Positions 56,670 to 64,000 of a stretch of DNA of 64,000 bases are shown in pieces. Under the pieces are notes generated by a model, which was not told the DNA's origin, did not search any database, and was given only the letters and a program-made list of their open reading frames with translations. This DNA is from Candidatus Endomicrobiellum trichonymphae (GTDB lineage: Bacteria > Elusimicrobiota > Endomicrobiia > Endomicrobiales > Endomicrobiaceae). How positions within the stretch are numbered: the stretch's first letter is position 1; each line of letters opens with the position of its first letter. The stretch covers positions 124,001 through 188,000 of the forward strand of contig NZ_AP017459.1 of NCBI RefSeq assembly GCF_002355835.1, in the 5' to 3' direction. A program made the translations under genes and the position numbers.

Positions 56670-57911
56670 TCAACAATTTTTTAAATTCATAAAAAGAAAG
56701 TATTGGGGAATTAATTTTTTTAAAAAAGAAGCAAACACTTTATTTGTTATCATAAAGGGTTTAATTTTATAACTAGAATCTACAATTAGATTCTGACTTT
56801 TAAAAAATCTTATATAATCCCCCTTTATATAATCAATTCGTTTTTGAAATTTTTCAGCAGATTTCTTTTCAAAGAAAAATCTTTTCTGTTCCATACTAGC
56901 TTCAAAAATAGAGCCTACTTTTTGTAAGAATTTGCACTCAATAACATAGATATCTCTATTTTTATATCATAATCTCCTAAATCATTAGGATGATTGCCTG
57001 CACTATCTCTAGAATGTAATTCTAACATATTGAAACTGTTTCTTTTTTAAAACGTCAACAATATCTACGACTATTTGTTTTTCATATCTTTTTTTCCACC
57101 TGCTTATTAAATAAAAAAGCAGACATCCATATATTTAATAGATTATGAAGCGTAACCGGAGAAAAAATAATATTGTCATCAATTTCTAATATAGACTTTA
57201 TTTAAAATCTGTTATCTCTTTTTTCTCGCTCCCAAACAAGGAAGAACCTCAAAATTTTTGCCTTCTATTTGTCTTATTTTATCTGTTGAAATGCATAAAA
57301 AATTAAGTATTTTATCAATATTAACTTCATCAATATTTAAGTCTGGAAGATTAATAATATCGTTAATTAATTTTGAAAGTATATTGCTGGCAATTTCATA
57401 GCCGTTTTTAGTATATTCGGTAGGTAATTCAATCATATTACACATTTCTTCAAATTTAATATCAGTATCTTGAAAGAAAGCTTTTTTTGCTTCTTCAATA
57501 AAATTTTTATCGATTTCATCATTTTTGATTGGGTAAATTGCATTAGGATCAGGACGCTGCTTATATTTTTCTAAAAAATTCTTATATTTCGTACTGTTTT
57601 CAGTATTAACACGATAATCTGGTGTTACTTCGATAAAACAATCAAATTCGTTATGGTAAAAAATCAGCATTATTCTGCAGTTCTGATAACCAATGAGCAA
57701 AACACAATAGATAATCAAAATTTTCTTGATTACATTTTATAGTAGTATTTTTTTCTCGTCTTAGACTTAAATTAGTTTCTATTAAGTAAATAAGACCTCT
57801 GGAAACTAATCGTCTAATTTTTTGTTCAGTCTTATACATTCTATTATTCTTAAATATCTCTATAGCAGAAGCTGAATAAAAGCTGAGTGCTTTTATATGC
57901 AAATCAGACAT
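56670..57911 (-). pseudogene. Decayed PD-(D/E)XK-like nuclease gene
   Basis: Read from the complement. Coding-like pieces in different frames: an N-terminal part from 57911 (YKTEQKIRRLVSRGLIYLIE), a long middle piece (57718-57212), EKQIVVDIVDVLKKKQFQYV, then LELHSRDSAGNHPNDLGDYD, and in another frame IYVIECKFLQKVGSIFEASM followed by FQKRIDYIKGDYIRFFKSQN. Asp in GDYD followed by E-C-K gives a plausible PD-(D/E)XK nuclease site. At least four frame breaks are present. Its 5' end overlaps the divergent mod start by about 15 bases, so the true start may be internal. Family name not known to me. Confidence 0.6.
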
Positions 57912-59581
57912 TTCATAACGGATGAAATAATAAACAAATTATCAAAACATTCAAACCTAAAAGAGCAGATAAAAGAATGGCAAGAATTGGGAATGGTAGA
58001 TAATAATTTTAGTTTCTCCGAAAGATCAGAAGCGCATAAATATTTGTCGATAGATACAAAACGTTTCAAAGATTTAGAATTAGATATTTTAGCCTTATTT
58101 GATAATTTAGACGAAGCGTTGGACGGCAGGTTAATACACAGCGAGAACTATCAGGCTCTTAATACTTTGCAGGAAAGATACAAAGAAAAAATACAGTGTA
58201 TTTATATCGACCCGCCTTACAATACAAATTCATCTCCTATAATATATATTAATAATTATAAGGATTCATCATGGCTAACTATTATACATAATAGAATGGA
58301 GTTATCCAGGAAGTTACTAAAAGATAATGGAATAAACATAACAGCTATTGACGATATTGAATTAAGATATTTAACATTTTTGCAAGATAATGTATTCGGT
58401 AAAAATAACTATATAACAACCATTATAACAAAGTGCAATCCTCAAGGAAGAGTCGCTGACAAAATTTCTAAAACATACAGAATTTCATATACTGCACTCA
58501 GGTAAATTGTTCATTAAGAAAAATGACGAAAAAAAGCCATTTCCATTGAAAAGAGGCGGAACAAACTCAAAAAGAGTAGAAAGACCAAATAGATATTATC
58601 CAATACTTGTTAAAGATAATAAAATATATATGATAACAGATGAAGAATATAGCAAAATTTATAATAGAGAAAAACAGCTGTTTAACGACAATTTCGTAGA
58701 AAGTCTGAAAAATAAATATGAAAGTCAGGGGTTTTCTTTTATTTTATCTATAAATCAGAGAGACGAAAAAGTAGTTTGGCAGAGAAAATTCGAAAGAGTA
58801 AAAGAAGAGAAAGAAACTTATATTGTCAAAAATAATATTATTTCTACATCATCCTCTGATGTAGAAATACCAAAAACTCTATGGCAAGACGCTAAATTCT
58901 CAAACCCCCAATATGGAAGTTCATATCTAAAAGATATTTTAGGACACAATAAGTTCGAAACTCCTAAAAGTATAAATACAATAAAGCAATTTCTTTCAAT
59001 GTTTGAGTCTACTGGAATTTATTTAGGGAACTACCGCAGAGGCTATAATAAGTGCAAATAAAGAGGATGATGGTGATAGAAAATATATCATTATTGAATT
59101 AGGAGCGCATATTGATACTATTATTATTCCAAGAATAAAAAAAATTATTTTTTCTGATTGTTGGAAAAATGGAATAAGTCAAAATGGGAAAGGAGTTTCT
59201 CAATTTTTCAAGTATTATTCTTTAGAACAATACGAAAATACTTTAAGAAATATGAAGTATTCAGAAAATATTCCATCTACTCTATGGGATACCAAAAACC
59301 CATTTGAAACTTATACTTTTAAAGCAGACCAAAAATTTGCCGATGTATTAAGCATAGAAAGCGAAATTTTGGAAGTTGATTTTAACAAATTATACAAAGA
59401 TATAGATTTTGCGGAAACAATATCTAATCTTAAGGGATTACCTATAAAGAGAATAACTAAAACAGGCGTATTATTAGACGGCGAAAACAAAGAGATGAAA
59501 ACTAATTATAAAGATATGGCGAATTCTGAAAAGATTGAATTTATAAGACTGTTAAAACCCTTACTTTGGTGGGGCGAATAA
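57897..59581 (+). pseudogene. mod: Type III restriction-modification DNA methyltransferase (Mod), broken
   Basis: Three consecutive frames make one Mod protein, an adenine-N6 methyltransferase that also gives a type III system its sequence specificity. Frame 1 (57897 to about 58470) has the catalytic DPPYNT (Asp105) and ends in QGRVADKISKT. Frame 2 continues EFHILHSGKLFIKKNDEKKP through PFPLKRGGTNSKRVERPNRY to FETPKSINTIKQFLSM. Frame 3 resumes at GTTAEAIISANKED, then IELGAHIDTIIIPRIKKI, ending LLWWGE. The second break falls in the S-adenosylmethionine motif (expected FxGSGTT), which is lost. The order DPPY before FxGxG is the beta class. Confidence 0.88.
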
Positions 59582-59605: not shown

Positions 59606-61793
59606 ATGATTAGTAGAATAAATAAGATAAAAGATTTTGGGGGTTTTAAAAACTTTGAAAATAATGGCGAAGTTCCAGAGTTTAAGAAATTCAATCTTAT
59701 TTATGGCTGGAATTATTCAGGCAAAACTATGCTTTCAAGAGTGTTTAGATGTTTAGAAAAGAGCGAAAAGCACCGTGATTACGCAGACGCAAAATTTGAA
59801 CTCGAAATATCAGGGAAGAAATATGACAATAATTTTTCATCGCCGAAACCCAATATCCGCGTTTTCAATTCCGATTTCATGAAGGAAAATCTAAAGTGGG
59901 ATATAGATGATATTATTGAACCCATAATACTTATGCTAGGCGAAGAAAACATTAAACTGCAAACAGAGTTAAGAAAAAAAGAAGAAACATTAATAAAAAT
60001 CCGCGAAGAAAATGGAAGAAACAAAAAAGACATAGATAAGGCAGCTACATATAAAGCAAAAGAAATTAAAAGTATACTAAGTTTAAGCAATTTTGACAAG
60101 AAATATTTGGAAAAAATTATTGAAAAGGTAAAAAACGATACTTCAGGATATATTTTAAAAACTGATTTTGATAAATATAAAACGCGAGCGCTGTCAACAG
60201 AACAAAAACCGATTATTGAGAATATAACATTTAATATTAAAGATCTGGAAATACTAAGAGAAAAATCTGAAGAAAAATTATACCGGCAAATATCTTCTAA
60301 TAAAATTGAAGAATTACTTAAAGATCCACAAATTAACAGTTGGGTAGAAACAGGCAAAAATCTGCATGAGGTAAAACAGTTTGTGAATTTTGCGGAAACC
60401 CGCTGCCAATAGATCTGCTGCCTAAATTAAATGAACACTTTTCTAGAGATTATGAGTTATTAAAAAATGATATTGAAACACTGCTGGAAGAATTAAATAT
60501 CTTTGAAATAAAATTAAATTCTTTGCCTGAGGAAATTGCTTTTTATACAGATATTCAACCAGATTTTAAAAAAGCCAAACCTATTCTTGAAAAAGAAATT
60601 CATAATTTTAACGATGCTGTAGAGATTTAAAAACAAAGCAAGAAAAACCTTTTGATAAATTAGAAGTTACTCGATTTGTAAATAACACAAAAGAATTAGA
60701 AAAAGCTTTAGCAGACTTCAACGCTATCATAAGAAAAAATAATGATAGAACAGATAATTTTGAGAGAGAGAAAAATGCCGCAATTGCAAAATTAAAAGAG
60801 CATTTTGCAGCAGAGTTTGAAAAGATAGAAAAGTATTCTGAAAGGCAAATGCTATTAGAAAGTGAACGAACAAAAATTGAGAAAGATAAAGAAGAAATCG
60901 GCAAAATAAAAGCACAGTTAGATGAAAGTGGTAAAGGCGCTGAAAAAGTAAATGAATACTTAAAAATATTTTTTGAAAAAGACAATATTAAGATTGAACC
61001 AACAGAGGATAAAAAGTTTAAGCTGGTTCGCGGAACGGAAATAGCAAAGAATTTAAGTGAAGGAGAGAAAACAGCAATTTCATTCGCCTATTTTGCGGCG
61101 AAACTTGAAGAACAAAATAACAATATAGCTGATACAATAGTTTATATTGACGATCCGGTTTCAAGTTTGGATTCAAATCATTTGTTCAATATTTATTCTT
61201 TTATAAGAGATATATTTTATGAGTACAAAAATAAAAAACATATTTGCAAATGCAAGCAGTTATTTATTTCAACACATAATATTGAATTTTATAATTTATT
61301 TTGCGATTGGTCTGAAAAGCAAGGGTATTTAATTAAAAGAATAAAAAAATCACATTGTGACGAATCTATATTAACTAAAAGCGAGGATGTGATTGAGAAA
61401 TATAAGTCTGAATATGTTTATTTATTCTCATTGATAAATAAATTTAATAACGATCCCGAGCCAAAAGACACTTTTGAACATCTATATTATTTACCTAATG
61501 TCTTAAGGAGGTTTGTTGAAACATATTTGAGTTTTAAATATTTGTCCCGTAAAAGTATTGAGGAGAACATTCATGATTTGATTTCTAATCGGGTTGATTG
61601 TGAAAGAGCAAGAAAATTTATGCATTATCACAGTCATAGTTTGACGATCAATAACTTAATAGGATTCCCGGATTTAGCCGAAAGTACTGATATAATAAAA
61701 GCCGTGAAAAAAGATGATTCAACGCACTATAATTCATTAGTTAAAGCAGTAAATAATATAACTAGAGAAAAAAATAATGAAAATCACTCTTGA
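59606..61793 (+). pseudogene. AAA_13 ATPase resembling RloC/PrrC anticodon nucleases, broken
   Basis: ABC-type ATPase head split around long coils. Frame 1 (59606-60380): Walker A YGWNYSGKTMLSR at about residues 33-45, then coils. Frame 2 (60382-60625): CEFCGNPLPIDLLPKLNEHF, a C-x2-C centre like the zinc hook of RloC. Frame 3 (60627-61793): coiled coil, signature NLSEGEKTAISFAYF, Walker B TIVYIDDPVSSLDSNHLF, then a C-terminal domain with LRRFVETYLSFKYL (Arg-x3-Glu) and a His cluster at 61620-61640, a spacing near the Arg-Glu-His site of PrrC. Two frameshifts interrupt it. It lies 24 bases after mod and overlaps res by 17 bases. Confidence 0.75.
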
Positions 61794-64000
61794 AAAGATT
61801 TTAGAACAGATAGATTATGCCCAGTTGAACAATTGGCAGCTTCCTAGTATTTCTTGTTTTTCTGAAAATAAAAATTTAGAGGGGTTTCCATATCAAAAAC
61901 AAGCGCTTAAAAATATAACAAAAGCGCTTTATTTGTCTTTTAAAACTTTTCAAAACGGCAATGCAAGTCCCGATAAACAAACTCTCCATACAAAATCGGA
62001 CTTAAAGACAAAGCCTTTGCTGTACGTAAATTTACAAACAATAAAGATAAAAGCATAGGCAATACAAGCGGCAGATTTAAGTTTTTTCAAAATTATTCAA
62101 AAGATTATAAAGTTTTAGGGGGAGGAACTGAAGAATATGTCGCAGATGCCGCTTTTTTAAACAGGGCTTGTTTTTGGATGTCGACAGGTTCGGGGAAAAG
62201 TATTGTTTTGATAAAAACTATTGAACTTTTAGATTATTTACAGAAACAAAAACTTATCCCGAGAAAAGAAATAATGCTGCTTCCAAGAGAAGACTTGATA
62301 AAACAGTTTAAAAGAGAAATAGAAGAATTCAACAAAAGCAGAGAAAGAAAAATTGAACTTATAAATCTCATAAACTATGAGGATGATAAACAAGGCTTTA
62401 ATTACGACCATTCCATAAAGGTTTATTATAGAAGCGATTTGTTAAGAGATGAGCGCAAAGAAAGTATTTTAGACTACAGAAATTACGATAACGAAGGAAA
62501 CTGGTATATATTTCTAGATGAAGCGCATCGCGGAGAAAAAGAAAATTCTTCAGCGCAAAATTATGTTTCTGTTTTATCAAGAAACGGGTTTTTATTTAAT
62601 TTCTCTGCAACTTTTACGGAGAATATAGATTACTCGACAACTTGTTTTAATTTTAATCTTGAAAAATTTATCTCAGAAGGCTACGGAAAAAACTTATATT
62701 TAAGTCATGCTTGTTTTACTTTTGCAGCCGAAAAAAACGAATTAAGCGAGATAGAAAAACAGCAACAAGTCTTAAAATCTTTACTAGCTTTTACTTTAAT
62801 CAAGAAATCAAAAAAACAAGGATATTATCACGATCCTCTGCTTATAACTCTAGTAAATTCAATAAATACAGCCGACTCTGACTTACTTTTATTTTTTAAG
62901 AAGATAGAAGAGATAGCAACCGACAGTATCGCATATCAAATTTTTGATAAAGCAAAAGACGAGTTTGAACAAGAATTATCAGACAACAAAAAATATATAT
63001 TTGGGCAAGAAAAATTTTCTTTTGATAAAGAATTATTTGACAAAATTATTCTTAAGGATTTGTTAGAAAATATTTTTAATACTAAAAAGCCCGGCAAAAT
63101 TGAACTTTTAGAAGGCGAAAAGGAGAAAGAAATAGTATTAAAATTAGAAACAACAGATAAACCGTTTGCGCTCATTAAAATAGGCGATGCTAAGAAATTT
63201 CAAAGGGAAAAATTAGGCGGTAATTATCAATATGTAACTTCTCCTGAAAAAAAGACTGTATTTCAAGGGATAAATGATAATGAGGATATAAATCTTTTGC
63301 TTGGAAGCCGTAGTTTTTATGAGGGCTGGGACAGTAATAGACCGAATGTAATAAATATGATAAATATCGGCGGAAAAGAGGCTAAAAAGTTTGTTTTACA
63401 AAGCATAGGACGAGGCGTTAGAATAGAGCCTGTGAAAGGCAAAAGAAAGAGATTACCTGAAAATGATACAAATAAAAATAGACTTTTAGAAACGCTTTTT
63501 ATTTTTGCAACCGATAAGAATTCTATAGCCAGCATTTTTGAAACAATTGAAGAACAGAAAACAAAAGACGAAGAGTTAAAAGGTATTTTTAAAAACACTC
63601 CTCATTATGAGGAAGAAGCGCCAAGAAATAATTTTGCAAAGTTTAATATTTCAGAGCAAACAAAAGAAAACATTAGAGAATATATTAAAGAATTCAATAA
63701 AAACCTTTTATTATTATCTTTAGAAAATCTCAATCTTTTACTTGAGAAAATTGACGACGATAATTTTTTTCAAATAAAAGAGGATAATGTTTATAATGAT
63801 ATGGATTTTTTGTTTAACAAATTGATTTCTCATACTGCTGTAAAAAATAAAAAATTTTCTGGACTTAAAAAACTTGAGGACGAAATAATACATTTTAAGC
63901 ATATAAAAATATCTAATTTAGAAACTGAAAATGTTGAATTGTTAAACTCAGAAATTGAAGATGTAAAAATAGGCAAAAAGAAAGAGGCTGAATTTAGAGA
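61777..64000 (+). pseudogene. res: Type III restriction subunit (Res), frameshifted, runs off the window
   Basis: ATP-dependent translocase and endonuclease partner of Mod. Frame 1 (61777 to about 61995) reads MKITLEKILEQIDYAQLNNW and FPYQKQALKNITKAL. The protein then continues one frame away: YKIGLKDKAFAVRK, FLNRACFWMSTGSGKSIVLI (Walker A), WYIFLDEAHRGEKE (DEAH box, about 62515-62530), FNFSATFTENIDY, SRSFYEGWDSNRPNVINM and LQSIGRGVRIEP (motif VI). From the break to the window end about 670 codons are open, with no stop found by eye. The nuclease domain would lie beyond 64000. Confidence 0.85.

Follow-up and report, generated by a model that had tools for sequence, protein, structure and literature searches.

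RloC, the closest described system, is defined as a protein of 658–897 aa with an ATPase into which a CXXC-bearing coiled coil is inserted, and with an Arg-X3-Glu-X36–52-His motif in which Ser often precedes the His (PMC2610378). Its nuclease domain has been assigned the HEPN fold (PMC3710099), and in 2008 linkage to type I or type III restriction–modification (R-M) systems was recorded for 8 of 73 RloCs (PMC2610378). The studied relatives are ATP-driven enzymes that shut cells down by cutting tRNA. PrrC, the EcoprrI-linked tRNA-Lys anticodon nuclease, likewise combines an ABC ATPase with an Arg-Glu-His triad and is embedded in an R-M operon, but it is half the size, has no zinc-hook coil, and belongs to a type IC operon. 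At stake between the two is the mode of control—PrrC is kept silent by its own R-M enzyme, whereas RloC is proposed to be under internal control of its zinc hook and ATPase.

The window analyzed here is a 64,000-nucleotide stretch of the 1.13 Mb genome G000, and two further genomes, G015 and G034 (Endomicrobium sp. Hs463_bin80), are from the same genus. The recorded name of G034 is the basis for placing the host among relatives of the termite-gut symbiont Endomicrobium. All-frame translation of the window revealed one AAA_13 gene, here called rloC1, split over three reading frames (59606–61793, plus strand). We are reasonably confident that it belongs to the RloC family in decayed form and is the middle gene of a mod-rloC-res type III operon, with nuclease activity and latency ascribed by analogy with characterized relatives. 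The window copy itself is a pseudogene, and no function can be claimed for it. The operon has the following features (values are those of profile matches):

57897–58505, 58507–59061 and 59252–59581, plus strand: mod pseudogene (type III DNA methyltransferase) in three pieces; MTase_III at 9e-58, 3.5e-5 and 2.5e-7, N6_N4_Mtase (PF01555) at 1.9e-9
59606 to about 60378, plus strand: rloC piece A, with the ABC N-lobe and the first arm of the coiled coil; PF13166 at 1.5e-37, profile positions 5–252
About 60379 to 60627, plus strand: rloC piece B, with the apex of the zinc hook and the beginning of the second arm, in a different frame; PF13166 at 2.4e-7, profile positions 258–335
About 60621 to 61793, plus strand: rloC piece C, with the second arm, the ABC C-lobe and a C-terminal nuclease-type domain, in a third frame; PF13166 at 2.4e-70, profile positions 343–691
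59705–59728, plus strand: Walker A, G-W-N-Y-S-G-K-T, from translation; G-x-N-x-S-G-K invariant in 34 open relatives
60382–60393, plus strand: C-x2-C zinc-hook motif, C-E-F-C, from translation; neither Cys varies among the true relatives aligned
61050–61076, plus strand: ABC signature, N-L-S-E-G-E-K-T-A, from translation; conserved in relatives
61143–61172, plus strand: Walker B, Y-I-D-D-P-V-S-S-L-D, from translation; D-D-P invariant in relatives
61506–61520, plus strand: Arg-x3-Glu of the predicted anticodon-nuclease triad, R-R-F-V-E; Arg invariant, Glu or Asp in relatives
61623–61637, plus strand: His cluster, H-Y-H-S-H, from translation
61632–61637, plus strand: Ser-His, predicted third triad residue, x38 after the Glu; S-H invariant in 37 of 37 sequences (alignment A3)
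61777–61793, plus strand: 17-base overlap of the rloC stop with the res start (res ATG at 61777)
61777–63998, plus strand: res pseudogene (type III restriction helicase); ResIII (PF04851) at 6.2e-17, frame break near 62.06 kb, running past the window edge

Type III identity follows from the presence of both mod and a ResIII helicase, and the open mod of G015 matches MTase_III at 2.6e-183. Searched apart, the three rloC1 pieces match the 713-position PF13166 profile in colinear order and almost without gaps; this order, the coverage, and the strength of the matches exclude chance. The first-pass annotation had seen an AAA_13-type ABC-ATPase here, and its positions for the zinc-hook Cys pair and Arg-x3-Glu proved exact; the Walker motifs, signature, and His cluster that it named are present, and the position between mod and res with a 17-base overlap was also borne out, with the refinement that mod and res are broken too. 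Together the pieces total about 730 aa, and they were joined with X for one alignment and the tree, no base being restored. Piece A shares 70% amino acid identity with the open rloC1 of G015. The PADLOC profile PDC-S06, a candidate defense family that carries a name but no mechanism in the library, matches the window gene at 2e-50 and 3e-76 and the open homologue over its full length at 4e-162. A search of NCBIfam returned weak RecF/SMC matches only, with no RloC or PrrC model among them, and a PDB sequence search (piece C; alignment A2) gave chance hits or Rad50/AriA, with no PrrC or RloC chain.

The assignment to RloC is by match to the published definition rather than by residue-by-residue comparison with the assayed proteins of Geobacillus and Acinetobacter. 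Open copies from the genus are 748, 772, and 778 aa long, within the RloC range; C-E-F-C lies between the two ATPase halves; and the 748-aa protein of G015 carries C264/C267 and R661-x3-E665-x38-S703-H704. Across 34–37 aligned relatives, the hook Cys, Walker, signature, Arg, and Ser-His columns are invariant, the PrrC-like ATPase motifs as a set being invariant or nearly so, and the Glu position holds Glu or Asp (Asp in five relatives). The PADLOC PrrC profile matches piece C at 5.3e-12 in a span that covers the triad, and the open G015 protein at 4e-16 over residues 430–716, which hold R661, E665, and H704. The RloC-like identity proposed by the first-pass annotation is thus supported by the profile match, by zinc hook and size, by the spacing of the triad, and by the G015 homologue that is open between mod and res, and the alignment on which it hinged showed no misplacement of the triad residues. 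The locus resembles the RloCs of Geobacillus kaustophilus and Acinetobacter baylyi and the Campylobacter "restriction linked orf" in size class, hook-split ABC head, and R-x3-E-x36–52-(S)H, and in lying at times within R-M loci of type I or III; unlike them, the window copy is a pseudogene and lies strictly between mod and res. Identification as PrrC itself, to which profile similarity runs from 5e-12 to 4e-16, was rejected, given the hook and a length of about 750 aa, against 341–416 aa for PrrC without a coiled-coil/zinc-hook insert.

Within the class, only 5 of 96 genomes gave a match to piece C. In G015, mod (864 aa) and res (852 aa) are open on either side of the open rloC1 with short junctions, except that the C-terminal PD-(D/E)xK end of res has shifted to another frame; in G034, mod and res are open around a frame-broken rloC1. 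The window operon is flanked by trpA and a radical-SAM gene, that of G034 occupies the same site, and that of G015 adjoins the radical-SAM gene, which suggests one insertion inherited by all three genomes. This conserved operon place speaks for the RloC reading, as do dN/dS values between copies of mostly 0.24–0.52. The genus has two more AAA_13 genes (G048, G050), both outside R-M operons.

A second mod-rloC-res operon was found in the genome of the window (C1:34358–41321; L016:2359–9322), with mod in two pieces, res in three, and rloC2 open (778 aa; C1:37–39 kb)—within this genome, the only copy found that could still work. The first-pass annotation had pointed to related genomes as the place to look for intact operons, and G034 provides one, its second operon being open in all three genes (mod 637, rloC 772, res 889 aa). 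RloC1 and RloC2 share 28% identity, and the mod and res genes of the two operons can be aligned over short stretches only. In a tree of 37 sequences, RloC1 falls beside two Bacteroidota proteins (58–59% identity) and RloC2 stands apart; a search for close relatives of RloC2 found none. Strongly supported branches of this tree force two changes of the type III label, so RloC joined type III operons at least twice.

Comparison of G000 with G034 gives a dN of 0.145 for rloC2 against 0.025–0.036 for res2 and the N-terminal part of mod2, a protein change several-fold faster in rloC2 (L016:5049–7385, L020:5177–7495) that peaks in the distal coiled coil (residues 301–400). Both mod lineages show a divergent center between genomes, with 12–44% or 22–54% identity against mostly 82–96% in the flanks (L018:9410–12004 versus L019:2857–5316; L020:3225–5138 versus L016:7422–9322), a usual sign of target-recognition-domain exchange and pointing to it here. 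Pfam ResIII matches the res of the window (61777–63998) and that of G034 (L019:7529–10303), whereas the PADLOC REase_III models do not; the open G034 protein ends in a PD...IDPK motif, and by sequence these may represent an undermodelled group of type III Res.

Around relatives outside the genus, a tblastn survey with Endomicrobium mod and res queries, often with 1.5 kb of flank and liable to miss very different type III systems, returned no complete mod-rloC-res in 38 contig loci, about 400 Bacteroidota and about 400 Bacillota genomes, and six plasmid loci. The sole type III neighbor among the relatives fetched there is on a Porphyromonadaceae contig (L056), where mod-res is followed by a truncated rloC. 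Other relatives adjoin type I HsdS/HsdM genes (L024, L029, L032, L043, L055), type IIG genes (L031, L045), or AlwI (L036); further ones lie in other N6-methylase operons or have no related gene adjoining, and none of the six plasmid copies adjoins R-M genes. RloC thus behaves as a module common to many R-M types. A link with R-M systems is already known but rare, and here it arose twice within one lineage.

Several of these loci have further features. At L036:7993–9975, the RloC-like gene lies directly behind an AlwI-type restriction endonuclease gene, and L057 has the same layout. RloC-like genes at L029:12444–14954 and L030:2536–5049 adjoin an HD-CE + HATPase (paraMORC-like) gene, a possible further defense partner of RloC. 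Closely similar RloC-like genes occur in Lentisphaeria and Methanosarcinales metagenome-assembled genomes (L033, L034, L038), either by recent transfer or by binning error; in L033 and L034 the gene comes right after a short gene, which in L033 matches a dual-specificity phosphatase.

By analogy with the characterized proteins (PMC2610378, PMC3874168), the working form is most likely an anticodon nuclease that silences itself under the control of its zinc hook. Hook and ATPase together would hold the nuclease latent, the Rad50-like part would sense a cue of DNA damage or foreign DNA and release it, and the freed nuclease would cut the tRNA anticodon loop and stop translation; RloC would thereby serve as a second line of defense behind restriction, carried along with the restriction genes.

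How such a nuclease relates to the genes around it admits several readings. The one that survives best, to which we give about an even chance, is that RloC is a mobile accessory defense gene that enters R-M operons of any type because it is expressed and transferred along with them, while being physically uncoupled from them. The variety of settings—type I, type IIG, AlwI, and other N6-methylase operons, plasmids, or alone—is what this predicts, and RloC and the R-M genes decay independently in G000, G015, and G034; still, a strict place between mod and res, taken twice, is slightly more than "anywhere nearby" would give, and the tight or overlapping junctions suggest co-translation. Those same junctions (short in G015, overlapping in the window), the position of rloC between mod and res, its adoption by two separate RloC lineages, and the precedent of PrrC with EcoprrI (PMC2610378, PMC12707154) would also suit a PrrC-like arrangement, in which RloC is kept silent by physical contact with the type III Mod/Res complex until a phage factor inhibits that complex and so frees the nuclease. 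We regard this as doubtful. The open rloC2 of G000 stands between a mod and a res that are each frame-broken; G015 keeps rloC1 open even though its res has lost the frame at the nuclease end; in G034, the converse holds, with rloC1 broken beside open mod and res; and the relatives fetched outside the genus offer no complete type III operon, the rloC of L056 being truncated. Because RloC stays open beside a broken Mod/Res in G000 and an out-of-frame Res end in G015, failure of restriction in cis, the trigger suggested in the first-pass annotation for a guard that kills or arrests the cell, need not unleash it, and strict cis silencing by the operon's own Mod/Res is disfavored, although the model could be rescued if another system silences RloC in trans, if expression is low, or if RloC carries an undetected missense lesion. 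It is also unlikely, somewhat more so, that mod-rloC-res constitutes a recurrent functional three-gene defense unit, which would parallel EcoprrI-PrrC among type III systems and have been put together independently on at least two occasions, with Mod/Res and RloC regulating each other.

A reading that would remove the nuclease altogether, and that we consider improbable, is a Rad50/Lamassu-like DNA-binding ATPase with a non-nuclease C-terminal domain. The AlphaFold2 model of G015 RloC (pLDDT 83) shows an ABC head, with long helices on either side of the C-x2-C loop and a bundle of helices at the C-terminus, and its nearest folds are indeed Rad50, SMC, and Lamassu LmuB; a fold search with the C-terminal domain alone (PDB, BFVD) gave no significant match (best E 0.53). 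The HEPN entries 2hsb, 7ae6, and 8xeh rank 4th, 6th, and 11th with non-significant E of 1.7–3.4, and a HEPN assignment for the modelled bundle is tentative, though compatible with the search. Rad50 and LmuB share the ABC head and long coiled coil, and LmuB is not known to have a C-terminal triad region. Rad50, too, is without one (PMC2610378). Against the non-nuclease reading, conservation outside the ATPase motifs is among the highest at Arg, Glu/Asp, and Ser-His, the PrrC profile covers these residues, and their spacing fits the mutagenized triad of Geobacillus RloC, R692, E696, and H737 (PMC2610378).

The mod-rloC-res region has at least five breaks in about 6.5 kb that affect all three genes, and res breaks again past the window edge. 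Since the long ribosomal, rpo, and trp genes of the preceding ~48 kb (about 8.5 to 56 kb) are open, we interpret the breaks as operon decay and not poor sequence. That they are sequencing errors in an otherwise intact rloC1 is very improbable: frameshifts do sometimes arise from assembly errors, but here they cluster beside long open genes, and mod is additionally truncated by about 298 codons at its N-terminus (tblastn with the open G015 mod matches from residue 299). Where the missing 5′ part of mod belongs, two overlapping minus-strand ORFs (57212–57911; 168 and 86 aa) were observed; neither matches a family above cut-off, and the other fetched genomes lack a counterpart.

A RloC-type gene in a type III operon is thus of an ordinary kind in an uncommon placement, mildly informative through its independent recurrence and its decay separate from the R-M genes. 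Two independent operons in which RloC is open next to a broken Mod/Res, or the reverse, amount to natural experiments on the control of these nucleases, and they favor self-silencing. In this gut-symbiont lineage, reductive genome decay removes restriction and its accessory nuclease separately.
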